64,000 nt of DNA from Bacteroidia bacterium (GTDB taxonomy: Bacteria; Bacteroidota; Bacteroidia; B-17B0; Aurantibacillaceae), in NCBI GenBank assembly GCA_016787445.1, contig JAEUTQ010000038.1:1-64000 (forward strand), read 5' to 3'. How positions within the stretch are numbered: position 1 is the first letter of the stretch; every line of letters begins with the position of its first letter. The position numbers and the translations under genes were made by a program. Below, in pieces: positions 35,951 to 45,398 of this stretch. Under the pieces are notes generated by a model. That model had not been told where the DNA came from. It worked only from the letters and a program-made list of their open reading frames with translations, and searched no databases.

Positions 35951-36865
35951 TTATTTATCGGCAACCCAGGCACGATTGTGCTGACGCGAGAATCTCAATC
36001 CAAGCATTACTTCATGTGTACCTGAACTGTAACGACGGATATTTGTAGTTGAAAAATCGTAAGAATAACCAATCATTAAGTAGTTCTTGTATAAATAGCC
36101 GACAAGTGCAGTAACAGCATCATTATGTCGGTATGCTGCTCCTAACCAAACTTGCTCTCTGTAAATACCGCGCACTCCAACATCCAGTTTCATTGGCGCC
36201 GGTGTAGCATATTTTAAAATAAAGGATGGTTCCAACTTAAAATCTTCTCCCAAGTCAAACTTATAGGCACCATTTACATTAAAATGAGTCACCAATTTTG
36301 ATTTGCTTTCTACACCGGGATATAAATTAATTTTACTTTGATACATCTGTGGAACAGCGATTCCGATATAATACTTTTTTGAATACACTAAAACGCCGGC
36401 ACCAAAATCAGGCACATAAGTAGTTTGATATTGGGTTAATAAATTCTCATCGCCTGCATCATGTAATTGCAATTTATGCCCGTCGATTCCCCACTGCAAA
36501 ACTCCGGCGCTTAATCCTAAAGATACTTTTGTTTCCTCATTCAGTTTAATATGGTAAGCGTAAGAAAAATTTAAACCCACGCGACGGGTAGGACCAACGA
36601 TATCTGTAAATAAATTCATTCCCAATCCCATGTTCTTTAATTTCATCGGACCATGAACAGTTAACATGTAGGTGCGTGGCGCATCGGTTATACCTACCCA
36701 CTGGTAACGGTTATTTGAGCGAACATCTGCAAATTCTTCTTTCCCGGCTACTGCAGGATTAATCGCAAATTCATTTAACATGTATTGCGTGTATTGCGGT
36801 AACTGCTGCGCATTGGCGCTTGCCAATAACAGTATTCCGAATAGTATGTAAATAAATCTTTTCAT
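35951..36865 (-). CDS. PorP/SprF family type IX secretion outer-membrane protein
   Basis: A 304-residue outer-membrane barrel protein with a signal peptide (MKRFIYILFGILLLASANAQ). The PorP/SprF signature opens the mature part: LPQYTQYMLNEFAINPAVAGKEE in two conserved blocks, then RNNRYQWVGITDAPRT. Repeated strand patterns follow up to the LGLRFSRQ end. Members partner with an adjacent large type B T9SS cargo and are needed for its secretion or surface attachment. Here the gene begins one base after the giant SprB-like gene, which supports exactly that role. Confidence 0.93.
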   Translation of the reverse strand: MKRFIYILFGILLLASANAQQLPQYTQYMLNEFAINPAVAGKEEFADVRSNNRYQWVGITDAPRTYMLTVHGPMKLKNMGLGMNLFTDIVGPTRRVGLNFSYAYHIKLNEETKVSLGLSAGVLQWGIDGHKLQLHDAGDENLLTQYQTTYVPDFGAGVLVYSKKYYIGIAVPQMYQSKINLYPGVESKSKLVTHFNVNGAYKFDLGEDFKLEPSFILKYATPAPMKLDVGVRGIYREQVWLGAAYRHNDAVTALVGYLYKNYLMIGYSYDFSTTNIRRYSSGTHEVMLGLRFSRQHNRAWVADK

Positions 36866-36866
36866 G

Positions 36867-39800
36867 TTATCTGAATATAGTTAAAGGTCCGGTATATGCT
36901 TTAGGGAAATTTTTATGATTTAAATTGATGATGTAATAATAAGTTCCCACAGGCAAGTCTTTTCCTTTGAATCGACCATCCCATGGTACACCATAACCTT
37001 TAGAGTAGAATAATTGCTCACCCCATCTGTTATACACTTCCACTTCACAATCCGGGAACTGAATAATATTATCAATTACCCATGTATCGTTTTTACCATC
37101 TGAATTCGGACTAAATCCGTTCGGAATTACAATTTCAGGGAAGATATGTACATGCATTGTATCAGAAGCAACACACCCATTCGCATCTGTTACAATAACA
37201 GTGTAAGTAGTATTAACTGTATTAGACGCAACTGGATTTGATGAAGTTGGATTGTCTAATGTTGAAGAAGGAATCCAGGTAAATGTACCTCCGGCAGGAC
37301 CCGTTGGTGAACCACCAATAATGGTTGAGGTCAATACAGTAATGGTATAGTTAGGTCCAGCATCAACAATTGGTAAAGGATTTGAAGTAATGGAAATTGT
37401 ATCACGATGTATACATGTTCCATTTATTGCTTCTAAAACAAATGTTGTTGTTCCGACAGGAGGATTAACTGTTGTCGTAACTACTGTTGCGATTGGTGAA
37501 GCTGATGGAACTTGATACCAATTAAAGGTTGTTCCATTAATTGAGTTACTACCGTTGAGTGTAAATGTTGATGTTTGACAGAATGTGGAATCATTACCTG
37601 CTACTGCCAATACTGTAAGCGTAGAAGTTACTAATATGCTTGTATCTTTTCTACAACCTGCCGCATCAATCAATGTTAATGAATAGGTACCTGGTAAAAT
37701 ATTTGTTACACTACTATTAGTATTTGTAAATGCCGAAGGACCTGTCCAAGTATACGTGTAAACAGGAACACCACCGGTAACAGTAGTTGTAATGGCACCA
37801 TCGTTTGCAGTGTTACATGATGCGTCAACCACGGAAGTTGTTAGTGTTAATACAGGAGGATCTACGAGTGTAAATGTGGAAGAAATATTACATCCATTAG
37901 CATCCGTTATTGTTGCCGAATAAGTTCCGGAACACAATCCTGTTAAAGGATTTGTACTACCGGAAGGACTCCATGTATACGTATAAGGCAATGTTCCGCC
38001 ACTTGGCACTAGATTAATACTACCATTGCAATCTCCATTACACTGAGGTGCGCTTGTTATTGGCAAGCCTGCTACAATAGGTGTTGGCTGCGAAATATTT
38101 AAATTCTGTAACGAAACGCAACCATTCGCGGCGGTTACAGTTACATTCACAACACCACTGCATAATCCACTTGATGTACTGATGGTGCCAGAATTTACAA
38201 CTGTTCCACTACTCCAATTATACGTGAATGGTGATGTGCCTGAAGTTACGCTAACGGTTGCCACTGCATTACATGTTCCGCTACATGTTGCACTGGTTGT
38301 ATTTGCTACTAATGTTGGTCCATTCTGATTATTGATTGGGAACGTTAATGTTTTTGAACATCCTGAATTATCAGTTACTGTTACTGTATAATTACCCGGA
38401 CCAATATTACTTAACGTAGCAGTACTACCTGCAGGTAACCATGCGAAGGTATAAGTTGGAGTTCCTCCTGTTACCGCAACTACTATTGAACCATTATTTA
38501 CCGTACAACTTGGCTGAGTTACAGTTGGAGTTAAAGTTAAATCGGTTGCGGAATTTATGGTGACGGATGCATTTCTAATACAACCTTGCGCGTCTGTCAT
38601 TTGCACAAAATATGTTCCGCCGCATAAACCGGTGAGGGTATTTGATGTAGAAGCCGGCGTTAACCAATTATACGTTATTGGCGCAGTACCTCCAACAGCT
38701 GTAACAGTTGCAGCACCATTACACTGATTGAAACATGCCTCATTCGTTATATTAATTGTTTCACCTGTAATTCCGCTTGAGTTATTAATTGGTAAACTAA
38801 CATTCTGATTACAACCATTGTTATCTGTTATGGTAATCATGTAAACACCTGCACACAAACTATTACTAGATACACCCGTTGCACCATTACTCCATGAATA
38901 AGTGAATGGCGCTGTTCCACCAATAGCTGTTACTGTTGAAGAGCCATTACATAAACCACACGATGGTTGTGTAATTGCTGAAGTCATTGTAATTGCTGCC
39001 GGTGATGTGATACTTCCCGGGAAGACATTAAAGCATCCTTGCGTATCCGTGATAGTTACTGAGTAAGTACCATCACATAATCCGATAGCTTGTTGTGTAT
39101 TCTGACCTAATGGATCGCTCCAACTAAATGTATATGGACCAATACCTCCTGAAACAGCAGATGCCAAAATACTACCATTACATGTTCCATTACAAAGATT
39201 ATTAGTTACAATAGTTGTGGATGTAATACTAACTAATCCTGGTAAATTAAACGTTTGAGTAATTGCACAACTTAAAGCATCCGTTACAGTTAATGTGTAA
39301 TTACCCGGACAGATATTCGTGATTGAAGATGTTGTTGCACCGGTACTCCAGCTATAAGCATATGCCGGTGAACCACCGGAAGCATTTGCCGTAATTGTTC
39401 CGTTACAATTTCCTGCACATAAAGGTTGATTAACTGTAGTATTTGCATTAATCAATGGCGGTTCTGTAATAGTAACAGACTGGAATAATACACAGGAATT
39501 TGCATCAGTTATCTGTGCTGTGTATGTACCCGCACATAAACCTGTTGCAGGATTGACAGTTGAAGTAACAGGAGGTACCCACGCGATAACATAAGGCGCT
39601 GTACCACCCACAGGATTTGTTACCGAGGCTGCACCAGTACATTGTCCGTTACAATTTACATTAGTAGAAGTAACCACCGCGCTACTTGGGCCATTTGAAT
39701 TACTTAATGGAATTTGGAAAGTAGTTGAGCAATTATTGGCATCACGCACAATTACTGTATAGATACCGGCACAGATATTTGAAGCGACAGATCCTGTAGA

Positions 39801-42800
39801 TACTGAAGGCGTCCACGTAAATGTATAAGCAGGTGTACCGCCGGAAGGAGCAACGTTAATTGACCCATTACATAACGTACCACAGGTAGCGGCACTTGTA
39901 GATGGATTAATTGTTAATGTTGGAGGAGATATTAAAACTACTTGCTGTGTATCCAAACATCCATTGAAGTCAGATACAAACACACTGTACGTGCCTGCGC
40001 ATAATGCGGTTGCCGATTGTGTATTTTGGTTTGGAACTGAAGTCCAGGTATAGTTAAACGGTGCTGTACCATTAGAAGGATTACTAATAGCAACACCATT
40101 ACAATTGCTATTACAACTAGGATTGGTAAAGGTAGCATTCGCTTGCAGCGGCAAAGGATTCACAAGGTTTGTTACATTTTGCCCTAAACAATTATTTATA
40201 TCTCTTACAAAGACTGTATATGAACCCGGACACAAACCTGTTGGATTCGCTCCGGTTCCGGTTGGAATCCATGTATAAGAATAAGCACCGGTTCCACCAG
40301 TTACATTAGTTGTTATACTACCGTTACATGCGCTGTTACAAAGTGGACTAGTTGGCGTAGCTGTTACTGATATTGGAGAAGGTTGCGTAATTGCAAATGT
40401 TGTTGTTACTGAACATCCGTTAAGATCGGTAACAATACTGGAATAAGTTCCGGCACATAAATTGGAAGCTACACTGGTTGTTGATGCAGAACCTGACCAA
40501 CTGAAAGTATAAGTTGGTGTTCCTCCACCAATTGTTACGGATGCCGAGCCATTACACTGTGAATTACAAATAGCGTTTGTTACATTAACAGTTCCTGTTA
40601 AAGCACTAGGCTCTGTAATCTGAACAGTTGCTGTTGTCTGACAAAGATTGGCATCAATAACTGTTACACTATATACACCCGGACATAATCCGTTTACTGT
40701 TGGGAAAGACGATCCTGCGAAAGGTGGTAAAGGCGTCCAGGTAAATGTGTATGGAGCAGTTCCTCCGGAAGGCGTTACAGATGCTGATCCGTTACATGCG
40801 GCATTACATAAAACATTCGTTCCTGTAACTGAAGCCGCTACTGATGTTGGCTGAGTAATTGTAAATGTTTGCGCGTAGGCACAACCGTTCGCATCGGTTA
40901 CGTTAGCAGAATACGTTCCTGCACAAAGATTAGTTAAGGTTTGAGTAGTTACAGAACCCGGTAACCATGTTACAGTATATCCCGGCGTACCACCGGCAGG
41001 CGACGTAGTAATACTTCCGTTACAGGATGAATTACATCCGGCATTAAATGACGTTGCATTTAAACTAAACGTTGGAGGCTGCGCAATTGCAAATGTTTGA
41101 CTAACGGTACAATTTGTAGCATCAGAAACATTTACTGCAAATGTTCCCTGACATAATCCGCTAATATTTGGAGTGGTAGCACCGGTTGACCAACTAAAGG
41201 TAATTGGAGCTGTACCAACCGCACTTACAGATGCTGTACCATTACATAATGAAGGACATGTAATAGAAGAAGAAGTAACGGTTATAGTTGGACCAGTTGG
41301 ATCACTTAATGTTGTTACTAAAGTTTGGGTACAACCTGCATTATCACGAATGGTTAGAGTGTAAGTTCCGGCACCAACATTTGTTAAGGTTGCTGTTGTA
41401 TTTCCTCCTGGAGTCCAGGTAAATTGATAAGCCGGCGTACCTCCGCCAACTGTAGCAGTAATCGAACCGTTAGTTCCTGAACATGTTGTAGGATTAACCG
41501 AAGTAAACGTTGACGTTATTGCGCTTGGCTCTGTAACAGTAAACGTGCGTGTTTGAATACAATTATTCGCATCCCGAATATCAACCGTATAATTGCCCGC
41601 ACATAAATTAGTGACGTTTGGTGTTCCTTGTCCGGTTGGATTACCCGGCGACCATGTATAGGAAAGTGCACCTGTTCCGCCGCTCGCAGTAACACTAATT
41701 GCACCATTACATACAGAATTACATGTTGCAGCAGTAACGGTTGAAGTTACATTTATCGCCGGTGGATTAACGAAATTAATTGTTCCTGTGTTTGAACATC
41801 CTAATTGATCAGCAACAGTAACGGTATATGAGCCCGCACATAATCCTGTTGCAACTTGAGTTGATTGTGTCGGAACAGAAGTCCAGGTATAAGTATATGG
41901 TAAAGTTCCACCACTTGCATTCGCGCTGGCTGCACCTGTACAACCATTATTACAAGTTAGAACAGTACCGGTTGTTGTGATATTTACACTAACTGTTTGT
42001 ACGATGTTTACTGTTCTAGTAACTGAACAACCACGACTATCAGTTATAATTACAGTTTGTTGACCAACACATAAATTGGTGGCCACCGAATTTGTTTGTG
42101 AAGATGGAATCCACGAATAAGTGAATGCCGGTGTTCCGCCGCCAGCTGTAATTGTAGCTGCACCTGTACATGCATTACAGCTTGGTTGTACTCCGGTAAT
42201 TGCCGCTGTTAAAGTTGGTGGCGATGTAATATTAACGTTTGCAGAGTTCGTACAGCCTTGGGAATCTGTTACGGTTACAACATAGTTTCCGCTACACAAA
42301 TTAGATGCAACAGTTCCGGTTTGAACTGGAACAGTACTCCAACTATAATTATATCCCGGCGTGCCACCTGAAGCATTCGCTAAACCTTGACCGTCGCATG
42401 TACCGGCACAATTAGTAGGTACAGCAGTTGTAGTAATCGTAATTGGTAATGGATTTGAAATGTTTGTGGTTGTAGTTTTTGTACATCCTCTGCTATCAGT
42501 AACAACTAATGTATAATTACCGGAACATAAAGAACCAACTGTTGTGAGAGTGCTTCCGGTTGACCAATTATATGTATAAGCTGGAGTACCGCCGGAAACC
42601 GTAGAAGTAATTGAACCATTACAACCATTATTACAACTTGGCGGATTAGGTGTTAAAGCTACAGTCACATCAGTAGGTTGAGTAATAGTAACGGCAGTGT
42701 TTGTTGTACATCCGTTTGCATCAGTTACAGTTAAAGTAAAATTTCCTGCGCATTGTCCGTTAATGACTGCACCATTAATAGTTGAGGTAGGAGTTGTCCA

Positions 42801-45398
42801 AACAAATGTATAAGTTGGTGTTCCTCCACCCGCACTTCCTGATAAAGAAGCGTTACAATTTCCGAAGCAAGAAATTGAAGTTGTATTTGCTGAAACAGTT
42901 AACGCATTAGGTTGAGCAATATTATAAGTTTGTGTTCTTACACAACCTCCGGCATCACGTACAAATAATGTGTAAACTCCTGCGCACAATCCATTATAAG
43001 GCGGATTAGTAGTTACGGTTGAACTTGCAGACGCTAATGTAAATGTATAAGGTGCTCCACTTCCTCCGCTCGGGGTAGAGTTAATCACACCGGTACATAC
43101 ATTATTACACGTTAAACTTGTTGTAGTAACGTTCTGATTAATCTGAATAGGTTGAGTAATTGTGAAAGTCGTGTTAGCCGCACATAAACTTGCATCTCTT
43201 ACTGCAATCGTGTAGTTACCTGCGCATAAATTGGTAACTGTAGCTGTGCCTTGTCCGGTTGGGTTACCCGGCGACCATGTATAAGTAAAACCACCATTTC
43301 CACCGGAAGCATTAGCGACTGCAGAGCCCGTACAAACACCAAAACAAGTAATGCTTGCAGAGTTAACTGTTAGAGTTATTGGTGGCGGCTGAGTGATTGT
43401 AATAACAGTAGGTGTAGTTACACATAAAGATGCGTCTGTAACTGTTAAAGTATAATTACCTGCGCATAAATTAGTAATGTTTGCTGATGTTGAAGAAAAT
43501 CCGGAAGGACCCGACCAGCTTATAACGTACGGCGGCACTCCTCCACTTGGATTAGCATTAGCAGAACCATTACAGGTTCCGTTACAGGTTGCATTAGTAA
43601 ATGTAGGATTTGCTGTGAGTGTTGGAGGAGCAGTAATTGAAAACGTTCTTGTTATAGTACATCCTTTTGAGTCAGCGATGGAAACCGTATAGTTAGCAGG
43701 AGCCGGTGTTAAGGAACCACATAAACCTGTTGCCAGTGATGTTCCTTGTCCGCCACCCGGTGCAGGCGACCATGTATAGGTATAACCCGGAGAACCACCG
43801 CTTGCAGTTACAGACGCGCTTGCATTACATAATCCACCACAAGTCACATTAGTTTGTGATTGTGTTGCGGTTACTGATGTTGCAGGTTGAGAAATTGTAA
43901 AAGTAGTGCTTACGCTACACGTATTAATATCACGAATTATAACCGTATTATTTCCTACACATAGGCCATTTAATCCGGCCGTATTGCCAGAAGGTATGGA
44001 AACCGTTGTTCCTGAAGGAAGCCATGTTGCTGTATATGTACCAAGATTACCACCTGTAGGAGAAACGGAAGCTGAACCCGTACATTGACCAAAACATGAA
44101 ATACTTTGAGTAACAAGATTTGGTAAAATCGGATTTGGTTGCGTCATGGTGACAGTTTCACTGTAAGTACAGCCCTTACTATCTGTAATATTTAAAGTAT
44201 AATTACCCGCACACAAATTAGTTAAGTTAGCTCCAATGGCAGTTGTAAATGTTTGTCCACCCGGAGTTACGGTACCGGAATAATTTGGTGTACCACCTGA
44301 AATAAACCCGCTGATAAAACCATTACAAGCTCCGTTACAACTTGGCTGTGTTACTGCTAATGGAGTAAAATCCAAATCCGCCATTACCATGGCTATCTGA
44401 AAAAATCCAACCACGCCAAGAGTTGCATCCGTGACTGCAATTTGATATAAGGAACCGCATTTACAAAGATTATTTAAAGAAAAAGTTGTTGGTGCGTTTA
44501 TTGAAGTTGCAGTTGGCGCAGCTGTACAACCTGCAGGCCATCCGGGATAGGAAATAAAATAAGGATTAGAAACGCAACCGGCATCAAAAGTAAAAGAGAT
44601 TACACCGTTACAAATATTAGGACAAGTAGGAAGTGTTACAGCAGTTGTAATTCCACAAGCTAATATTTTCTGTTCACCCGATTTTACTTTTGAAGGATCA
44701 TTAAATACCGGAGGAACTTTGTAAAGTTGTGGATCCGACTTTTTCGCTAATAAAAAATAATCCTTGGCATTAACAGTTGCCAAATTGGAAATACTGATTT
44801 TATTTGAAATTGTAGTTCCAGAATTAATGAATGAAACGTTTGAATTATCAGAGGCGATGAAATCGTTGCATTTTAAGTACCCGTTTAATAACTCAAATTT
44901 TCCGCCATTAACATAAATGTTCTTTTTCGTTTGTAGTTGAGAAATTTCCCAATTACCGTTTTCAAAAACAATATCACTATTCAACTCGCCAAAAGCAGCG
45001 TAGATTGTGTTTTTCTGACTTGAATTACTCTTAAAAACTAATTTAGTTTGAGCATCGAAGCGTGTGGCATTACTTAATTTAAAATTTCCTGCAATCACAA
45101 GTTCAGTACTTGCATCACCGACAACATAAATCTTTGTTTTATTATTAAAGTAAATTGAACGCACTTCATTCTTACCCACCAATTCAATAACATTGTCTGC
45201 TGAGTAATTATCGAAAACTACATCTGAATTAATATCCGGCGCTTTAAAAATCGGATTACCTCCGCTTGTTAATGACCAATGTTTCGGATCATTCCATTTA
45301 CCTGAACCACCCACCCAATAATACGTTTGAGCAAAAGAAGCTGTAAGGGAAAAAAATAAAATAAGTGAGTATAAATGTCTTTTCACGCGAAGTGTCAT
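36867..45398 (-). CDS. Giant SprB-repeat surface protein with T9SS type B (CHU_C) domain
   Basis: A 2843-residue secreted adhesin. Layout: signal peptide (1-~23); an N-terminal module with YYWVGGSGKWNDPKHWS (about 25-245) of beta-helix-like strands; a degenerate SprB repeat (250-345); 29 SprB repeats (~345-2591, mean 77 residues); two Ig/PKD-like modules (~2592-2750); and a gliding motility-associated type B C-terminal domain (~2754-2843, IPNGFSPNSDGKNDTW and VYNRWGEQLFYS). SprB of F. johnsoniae is the mobile gliding adhesin; this one is shorter and its repeats carry four rather than two cysteines. The type B domain and adjacent PorP/SprF imply export through T9SS. Gliding itself is not proven. 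Confidence 0.94.
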   Translation of the reverse strand: MTLRVKRHLYSLILFFSLTASFAQTYYWVGGSGKWNDPKHWSLTSGGNPIFKAPDINSDVVFDNYSADNVIELVGKNEVRSIYFNNKTKIYVVGDASTELVIAGNFKLSNATRFDAQTKLVFKSNSSQKNTIYAAFGELNSDIVFENGNWEISQLQTKKNIYVNGGKFELLNGYLKCNDFIASDNSNVSFINSGTTISNKISISNLATVNAKDYFLLAKKSDPQLYKVPPVFNDPSKVKSGEQKILACGITTAVTLPTCPNICNGVISFTFDAGCVSNPYFISYPGWPAGCTAAPTATSINAPTTFSLNNLCKCGSLYQIAVTDATLGVVGFFQIAMVMADLDFTPLAVTQPSCNGACNGFISGFISGGTPNYSGTVTPGGQTFTTAIGANLTNLCAGNYTLNITDSKGCTYSETVTMTQPNPILPNLVTQSISCFGQCTGSASVSPTGGNLGTYTATWLPSGTTVSIPSGNTAGLNGLCVGNNTVIIRDINTCSVSTTFTISQPATSVTATQSQTNVTCGGLCNASASVTASGGSPGYTYTWSPAPGGGQGTSLATGLCGSLTPAPANYTVSIADSKGCTITRTFSITAPPTLTANPTFTNATCNGTCNGSANANPSGGVPPYVISWSGPSGFSSTSANITNLCAGNYTLTVTDASLCVTTPTVITITQPPPITLTVNSASITCFGVCTGSAVANASGGNGGFTYTWSPGNPTGQGTATVTNLCAGNYTIAVRDASLCAANTTFTITQPIQINQNVTTTSLTCNNVCTGVINSTPSGGSGAPYTFTLASASSTVTTNPPYNGLCAGVYTLFVRDAGGCVRTQTYNIAQPNALTVSANTTSISCFGNCNASLSGSAGGGTPTYTFVWTTPTSTINGAVINGQCAGNFTLTVTDANGCTTNTAVTITQPTDVTVALTPNPPSCNNGCNGSITSTVSGGTPAYTYNWSTGSTLTTVGSLCSGNYTLVVTDSRGCTKTTTTNISNPLPITITTTAVPTNCAGTCDGQGLANASGGTPGYNYSWSTVPVQTGTVASNLCSGNYVVTVTDSQGCTNSANVNITSPPTLTAAITGVQPSCNACTGAATITAGGGTPAFTYSWIPSSQTNSVATNLCVGQQTVIITDSRGCSVTRTVNIVQTVSVNITTTGTVLTCNNGCTGAASANASGGTLPYTYTWTSVPTQSTQVATGLCAGSYTVTVADQLGCSNTGTINFVNPPAINVTSTVTAATCNSVCNGAISVTASGGTGALSYTWSPGNPTGQGTPNVTNLCAGNYTVDIRDANNCIQTRTFTVTEPSAITSTFTSVNPTTCSGTNGSITATVGGGTPAYQFTWTPGGNTTATLTNVGAGTYTLTIRDNAGCTQTLVTTLSDPTGPTITVTSSSITCPSLCNGTASVSAVGTAPITFSWSTGATTPNISGLCQGTFAVNVSDATNCTVSQTFAIAQPPTFSLNATSFNAGCNSSCNGSITTSPAGGTPGYTVTWLPGSVTTQTLTNLCAGTYSANVTDANGCAYAQTFTITQPTSVAASVTGTNVLCNAACNGSASVTPSGGTAPYTFTWTPLPPFAGSSFPTVNGLCPGVYSVTVIDANLCQTTATVQITEPSALTGTVNVTNAICNSQCNGSASVTIGGGTPTYTFSWSGSASTTSVASNLCAGTYSSIVTDLNGCSVTTTFAITQPSPISVTATPTSPLCNSACNGSITTNVTGGTGAYSYTWIPTGTGANPTGLCPGSYTVFVRDINNCLGQNVTNLVNPLPLQANATFTNPSCNSNCNGVAISNPSNGTAPFNYTWTSVPNQNTQSATALCAGTYSVFVSDFNGCLDTQQVVLISPPTLTINPSTSAATCGTLCNGSINVAPSGGTPAYTFTWTPSVSTGSVASNICAGIYTVIVRDANNCSTTFQIPLSNSNGPSSAVVTSTNVNCNGQCTGAASVTNPVGGTAPYVIAWVPPVTSTVNPATGLCAGTYTAQITDANSCVLFQSVTITEPPLINANTTVNQPLCAGNCNGTITANASGGSPAYAYSWSTGATTSSITNICPGNYTLTVTDALSCAITQTFNLPGLVSITSTTIVTNNLCNGTCNGSILASAVSGGIGPYTFSWSDPLGQNTQQAIGLCDGTYSVTITDTQGCFNVFPGSITSPAAITMTSAITQPSCGLCNGSSTVTAIGGTAPFTYSWSNGATGVSSNSLCAGVYMITITDNNGCNQNVSLPINNSSGITGETINITNEACFNQCNGAATVTAVGGTAPITYNWLTPASTSNTLTGLCGGTYFVQMTDAQGCIRNASVTINSATDLTLTPTVTQPSCTVNNGSIVVAVTGGTPTYTFAWLPAGSTATLSNIGPGNYTVTVTDNSGCSKTLTFPINNQNGPTLVANTTSATCSGTCNAVATVSVTSGTSPFTYNWSSGTVVNSGTISTSSGLCSGVVNVTVTAANGCVSLQNLNISQPTPIVAGLPITSAPQCNGDCNGSINLVPSGGTLPYTYTWSPSGSTNPLTGLCSGTYSATITDANGCNISSTFTLVDPPVLTLTTSVVDASCNTANDGAITTTVTGGVPVYTYTWTGPSAFTNTNSSVTNILPGTYSLTLIDAAGCRKDTSILVTSTLTVLAVAGNDSTFCQTSTFTLNGSNSINGTTFNWYQVPSASPIATVVTTTVNPPVGTTTFVLEAINGTCIHRDTISITSNPLPIVDAGPNYTITVLTSTIIGGSPTGPAGGTFTWIPSSTLDNPTSSNPVASNTVNTTYTVIVTDANGCVASDTMHVHIFPEIVIPNGFSPNSDGKNDTWVIDNIIQFPDCEVEVYNRWGEQLFYSKGYGVPWDGRFKGKDLPVGTYYYIINLNHKNFPKAYTGPLTIFR
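37626..44366 (-). repeat. Array of 29 SprB repeats (protein-coding)
   Basis: About 29 units of roughly 232 bases. Each encodes C-n-x-x-C-N-G-S near the start, GGTPxYTYxWS, and a terminal N-L-C-A-G-N-Y-T-x-T-V-T-D-A-N-G-C followed by ITQP. The units are diverged at DNA level, so this is an old array rather than a recent expansion. Repeats 13 (about 41280-41520), 26 (about 38340-38540) and 29 (about 37620-37840) lack one matched pair of cysteines. Confidence 0.9.

Follow-up and report, generated by a model that had tools for sequence, protein, structure and literature searches.

SprB-repeat proteins are surface fibres of the T9SS that occur widely, and there is little explanation so far for the way in which chains of such length bear load or withstand proteases. 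The repeat family (Pfam PF13573) and the T9SS route are already known; on the cysteines of SprB repeats, a search of openly accessible literature found no paper. In Flavobacterium johnsoniae, SprB is SprB-repeat, type B CTD cargo beside its PorP/SprF-family partner SprF, and a disulfide links SprF to GldK via a twin-cysteine motif in the SprF C-tail (PMC12635249). Among solved folds, the best match to our AlphaFold2 model of three repeats is the Aureispira grappling-hook protein GhpA (entries including PDB 9flw), which aligns over 216 residues with a Z of 11.5. The sequence similarity of GhpA to the repeats studied here is distant only (E 0.01), and the literature search found no published report of grappling-hook disulfides. 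Tandem Ig rods, such as the titin I-band and NCAM, are likewise chains of Ig-like domains and match the same model with a Z of about 10. To our knowledge, rods of this type carry their bonds within the domain, where bonds are present, and have no staples between next neighbours. One domain of RemZ (8gl8) also matches, in a structure of which the CTD alone is well resolved (PMC10994853), and phage Ig-like proteins match the repeats weakly. Among solved structures, the search yielded no SprB repeat that has C1 and C4, the two usual cysteines of the family.

Here, we analyse a window of 64,000 nucleotides from a Bacteroidia bacterium (contig JAEUTQ010000038.1) and propose that in its SprB-repeat adhesin Ig-like beta-sandwich domains would be joined into a rod by disulfides of two types. 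The gene lies at 36867..45398 on the minus strand, as do all features described below, and encodes 2,843 residues, 122 of them cysteines, as established from the open reading frame together with Pfam and NCBIfam matches. The protein opens with a signal peptide, identified by eye, and an N-terminal region, which are followed by a degenerate first domain or "30th" repeat recognised by sequence and named rep0 (44364..44681, limits approximate; residues ~248–345), 29 tandem SprB repeats of 74–87 residues each (37593..44375), an Ig-like domain d30 after the array (37383..37592, limits approximate), a last Ig-like domain d31 (37143..37382, limits approximate) and a type B T9SS C-terminal sorting domain (36867..37130). 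The PF13573 model scores 521 bits over 22 stretches, above its curated cut-off of 28, and the C-terminus is matched by CHU_C (Pfam, 84.8 bits) and TIGR04131 (NCBIfam, 63.4 bits). The next gene (35951..36865) encodes an outer-membrane partner of the PorP/SprF family (PF11751, 276.7 bits; TIGR03519, 290 bits). By its C-terminal domain and this adjacent partner, the adhesin is identified as a type B T9SS cargo, for which export is predicted. In contrast to the SprF–GldK bond (PMC12635249), the bonds proposed here lie within the adhesin, and the C-tail of the SprF-like partner contains no cysteine in its sequence, so that the twin-cysteine motif for a GldK bond is absent.

Two cysteines, C1 and C4, are usual in the surveyed repeats of the PF13573 family, to which the repeats of the window adhesin belong; most of the latter differ from this norm in having a second pair, C2 and C3. 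With repeat boundaries set by cutting the protein at C1, an exact recount finds C1 and C4 in 29 of 29 repeats and C2 together with C3 in 26 (repeats 10 and 24 have a C1–C2 spacing of 3 where 4 is the rule), while a single C2 or C3 occurs in none. Repeats 13 (41295..41519), 26 (38322..38543) and 29 (37593..37853) carry C1 and C4 only, just as the original prediction, made from this one protein, had listed them. If the three losses of C2 and the three of C3 were independent, their full coincidence would have a probability of 1/3654, which is notable, though it is based on three repeats of one protein. At the ends of the array the pattern is incomplete: rep0 has C1, C2 and C3 (residues 259, 263 and 312) and lacks C4, d30 has a C1-like cysteine at 2607 and a C4-like cysteine at 2662, and d31 has a C4-like cysteine at 2742 without C1. 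Besides C1–C3, rep0 also holds cysteines at 248, 275, 291 and 314.

Does the joint presence of C2 and C3 extend beyond this protein? SprB repeats occur in all 61 genomes searched of the bacterial family to which the window genome belongs. Repeats were collected with an iterated profile in six frames from regions of these genomes and from 49 loci of a wider collection, the latter found with the whole protein as query; a degenerate DNA pattern for C-x3-C gave too much noise for use by itself. Of the 2,453 distinct repeats whose C1 and C4 are in place, 992 contain C2 as well as C3, both are absent from 1,448, and 13 score as having just one of the two; in an earlier, family-only set the corresponding counts were about 980, 914–930 and 30. 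Inspection of the 13 discordant repeats identified five as rep0-type, with C3 shifted in the alignment, and most of the others as different Ig-like domains, leaving two or three real SprB repeats at most (L161 and L173 may be real). A frequent lone C2 or C3 in other genomes, the outcome that would have spoken against the pairing originally predicted, was thus absent. In the wide set outside the bacterial family, 621 repeats are of the two-cysteine form with C1 and C4 only and 21 have four cysteines; with the two-cysteine form prevailing there, the second pair would be mainly an elaboration of this lineage, sporadic elsewhere.

Apart from the four numbered positions, about 3.6% of repeats, including some in L092, L107 and L122, have a lone cysteine in strand F (profile column 57) in a Y-x-C context like the Ig signature, partnerless within the repeat. 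Unpaired cysteines are thus not always excluded from these domains, and the strict pairing is specific to C2 and C3. SprB-like repeats without C1 or C4 were also seen in L174, L176, L179 and L180, on contigs labelled Thermoplasmata archaea.

The history of the pair can be followed in 26 full-length collinear orthologs, a set that includes the window protein and whose other members are 44–98% identical to it. All can be aligned over their full length, with 29 repeats each and in the same register; a tandem array that keeps both repeat number and register among orthologs of ~45–58% identity is unusual. Every one of the 26 has only C1 and C4 in repeats 26 and 29, and none has C2 or C3 in repeat 13. 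On the ortholog tree, parsimony places ~30 changes of C2 and of C3, every one of them coincident and none separate. In one ortholog, L121, 14 of the 26 C2–C3 pairs are missing with no single cysteine left over, and in rep0 the two were lost together in three lineages (L113, L118 and L121). When cysteines were masked, 25 of 26 changed repeats had their best match at the corresponding array position of another species, in most cases a four-cysteine repeat, which indicates that the pairs were lost by substitution in place and not by swapping of repeats. A different pair, C5/C6, is found in repeat 13 of one clade (L097, L098, L083, L103, L105, L109, L110, L113, L116 and L118), further along the ladder that joins strands B and E, and 12 other repeats have a cysteine pair near these sites; C5 and C6 were likewise gained together.

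Coupling between alignment columns and the predicted fold agree with this evolutionary pairing. In a mean-field analysis of 2,591 repeats, C2–C3 is the top coupled pair (z = 31.7, the next pair reaching 10.3), and the other cysteine–cysteine pairings that involve C2 or C3 stay below 0.9. The same two positions are still coupled, at rank 9 (z = 5.4), in the 1,561 repeats that lack both cysteines, and the couplings 18–50, 19–49 and 22–46 lie in the same antiparallel register as the C2–C3 positions (sum 68). From these couplings, C2–C3 is predicted to be the end rung of a cross-strand B–E ladder on which C5/C6 would be another rung. AlphaFold2 models repeats 12–14 as a chain of Ig-like domains (pLDDT 96.7, pTM 0.79), with C2 immediately ahead of strand B and with the E–F turn holding C3, and the strand order A-B-C-E-F-G of an Ig fold is found alike in the AlphaFold2 strands, in the Ig-like PDB matches and in the coupling ladders. 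A C2–C3 disulfide within the same domain, as originally predicted, is therefore very well supported by the survey, by the coincident changes and by the coupling, and we predict it with high confidence.

The partners of C1 and C4 appear to be a different matter. The couplings define a B–E antiparallel pair, a C–F antiparallel pair (32–59, 34–57, 36–55), an F–G hairpin (58–66) and a parallel A–G pair (4–67, 8–71, 11–73), and bring loops B–C and F–G together (28–61, 29–63), a layout that agrees with the AlphaFold2 strand order. These strand directions set C1, C2 and C3 at one pole of the domain and C4 at the opposite one. Within a domain, C1 and C4 would thus be separated by roughly a whole sandwich, and the lower pole of a domain is probably turned towards the upper pole of the domain that follows. 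When 2,304 neighbouring pairs of repeats were analysed, C1 of repeat i coupled with C4 of repeat i+1 at z = 4.3, versus 1.9 for C1 and C4 of repeat i itself; the second repeat of the pair, however, gave a same-repeat C1–C4 coupling of z = 4.0, which counts against a bond between neighbours. A further inter-repeat analysis used only repeats in which C1 and C4 are invariant and removed those two columns. Its strongest inter-repeat coupling was 12(i)–63(i+1), which links the position directly preceding C1 to the one two places ahead of C4 in the next repeat, and same-repeat couplings from pole to pole were all at z ≤ 2; a block test of pole-to-pole couplings gave a modest p = 0.015. Counts of C1 and C4 losses give phi values of 0.13–0.30 for all combinations, the losses being too few to tell bonds between domains from bonds within them.

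The ends of the array point in the same direction as the inter-repeat couplings. In 26 of 26 orthologs rep0 has C1 without C4, d31 has C4 without C1 and d30 has both, which is the layout that a staple to the next neighbour requires. In four mid-array repeats, two of L012 and two of L159, C1 has been lost, and the linker that joins each of them to the following repeat contains a new cysteine that could serve C4 of that following repeat. Taking topology, couplings and array ends together, we consider it likely that C1 of repeat i is bonded to C4 of repeat i+1, as an inter-domain staple. A further case, in L077, seemed informative at first look and fits neither a bond between domains nor one within the domain better.

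How do other arrangements of the same cysteines fare? The original prediction had placed a C1–C4 bond, next to the C2–C3 bond, inside each domain. Such a scheme shares all of the C2–C3 evidence, and it can draw on the near-invariance of C1 and C4 together and on their single-repeat coupling (13–65, z = 4.0), in which a contact in the same domain is indistinguishable from one with a neighbour. The strand topology, however, sets the two cysteines at opposite poles, the contacts beside them run between neighbours with none in the same repeat from pole to pole above z = 2 once the C1 and C4 columns are removed, the relocated cysteines sit at the domain junction, and the first domain of every ortholog lacks C4 as the last lacks C1. 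The intradomain C1–C4 bond is thus probably wrong, and we regard this scheme as unlikely. The proposed topology also gathers C1(i), C2(i), C3(i) and C4(i+1) near one pole, as would suit a metal held at the domain junction by these four residues with no disulfides at all; this seems very improbable to us, given that repeats of the wide set mostly have C1 and C4 alone (621 against 21), that the protein is extracellular and that C5/C6, elsewhere on the B–E ladder, can replace the extra pair, a move open to a disulfide and not to a metal site.

Joint loss of C2 and C3 would also follow if four-cysteine repeats had C1–C2 and C3–C4 bonds and the loss let C1 and C4 pair instead, and C1 and C2 are indeed near each other in sequence. 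Against this scheme stand the couplings (C1–C2 z = 0.4 and C3–C4 z = 0.1, compared with 31.7 for C2–C3), the AlphaFold2 model, in which the length of strand F separates C3 from C4, and rep0, where C2 and C3 are lost together with no C4 present; we give it hardly any credence. Equally remote, in our judgement, is the idea that the co-occurrence reflects ancestry, or the swapping of whole two-cysteine and four-cysteine repeats. Tandem repeats are open to homogenisation and the four-cysteine repeats are concentrated in one family, but C2 and C3 changed together ~30 times while the array positions stayed fixed, which is difficult to reconcile with it, and swapping of whole repeats as the cause of co-loss was rejected by the cysteine-masked position matching, in which 25 of 26 changed repeats are nearest to their own position elsewhere.

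We therefore return to the combination of an internal C2–C3 lock with a C1–C4 staple to the next domain, which as a whole we hold to be probable, its bonds being deduced from sequence patterns and models. C2, in loop A–B at the start of strand B, would bond C3 in turn E–F of the same domain as a rung of the antiparallel B–E ladder, an extra lock specific to the lineage that would be gained and lost as a unit. C1, in loop A–B at the lower pole of domain i, would bond C4, in loop F–G at the upper pole of domain i+1, from rep0 through d31, and C2–C3 would clamp the loop that carries the staple. The resulting number, ~58 disulfides per molecule, is close to the roughly 55 first proposed, on a different basis: 31 staples and 27 internal bonds. 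Every peptide bond between residues 259 and 2742 would then lie within at least one disulfide loop, and because these loops would overlap, one backbone cut between the two residues should leave the rod unsevered. Tension could bypass the inter-domain linkers. Load bearing and protease resistance would be expected of such a rod, and the stiffness and protease resistance suggested earlier read more strongly for the staple than for bonds confined to single domains. Whether the same holds more widely is, in our estimate, an even question: SprB-type adhesins across Bacteroidota may be continuous covalent chains through C1–C4(next) bonds, safe from severing by any one backbone cut, with a second lock in one family and with oxidation that dispenses with both DsbB and VKOR. 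The next-neighbour staple and the all-or-none second lock in any case make a concrete and cheaply testable architecture.

Such an architecture raises the question of what makes some 58 disulfides per molecule where neither standard re-oxidase is found. A demand for periplasmic disulfide formation before T9SS export, as suggested earlier, is plausible. The paired cysteines suggest many exported disulfides, yet searches of the window genome and its close relatives turned up no DsbB and no VKOR; a class-wide sample of 119 genomes contained DsbB in none and VKOR in six. It is possible that a divergent re-oxidase was overlooked. Disulfide formation in the envelope has been shown for F. johnsoniae (PMC12635249), and the passages found there name no oxidant. 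The window genome does encode two DSBA-family matches, both with a CxxC motif and with N-terminal export signals as read by eye.
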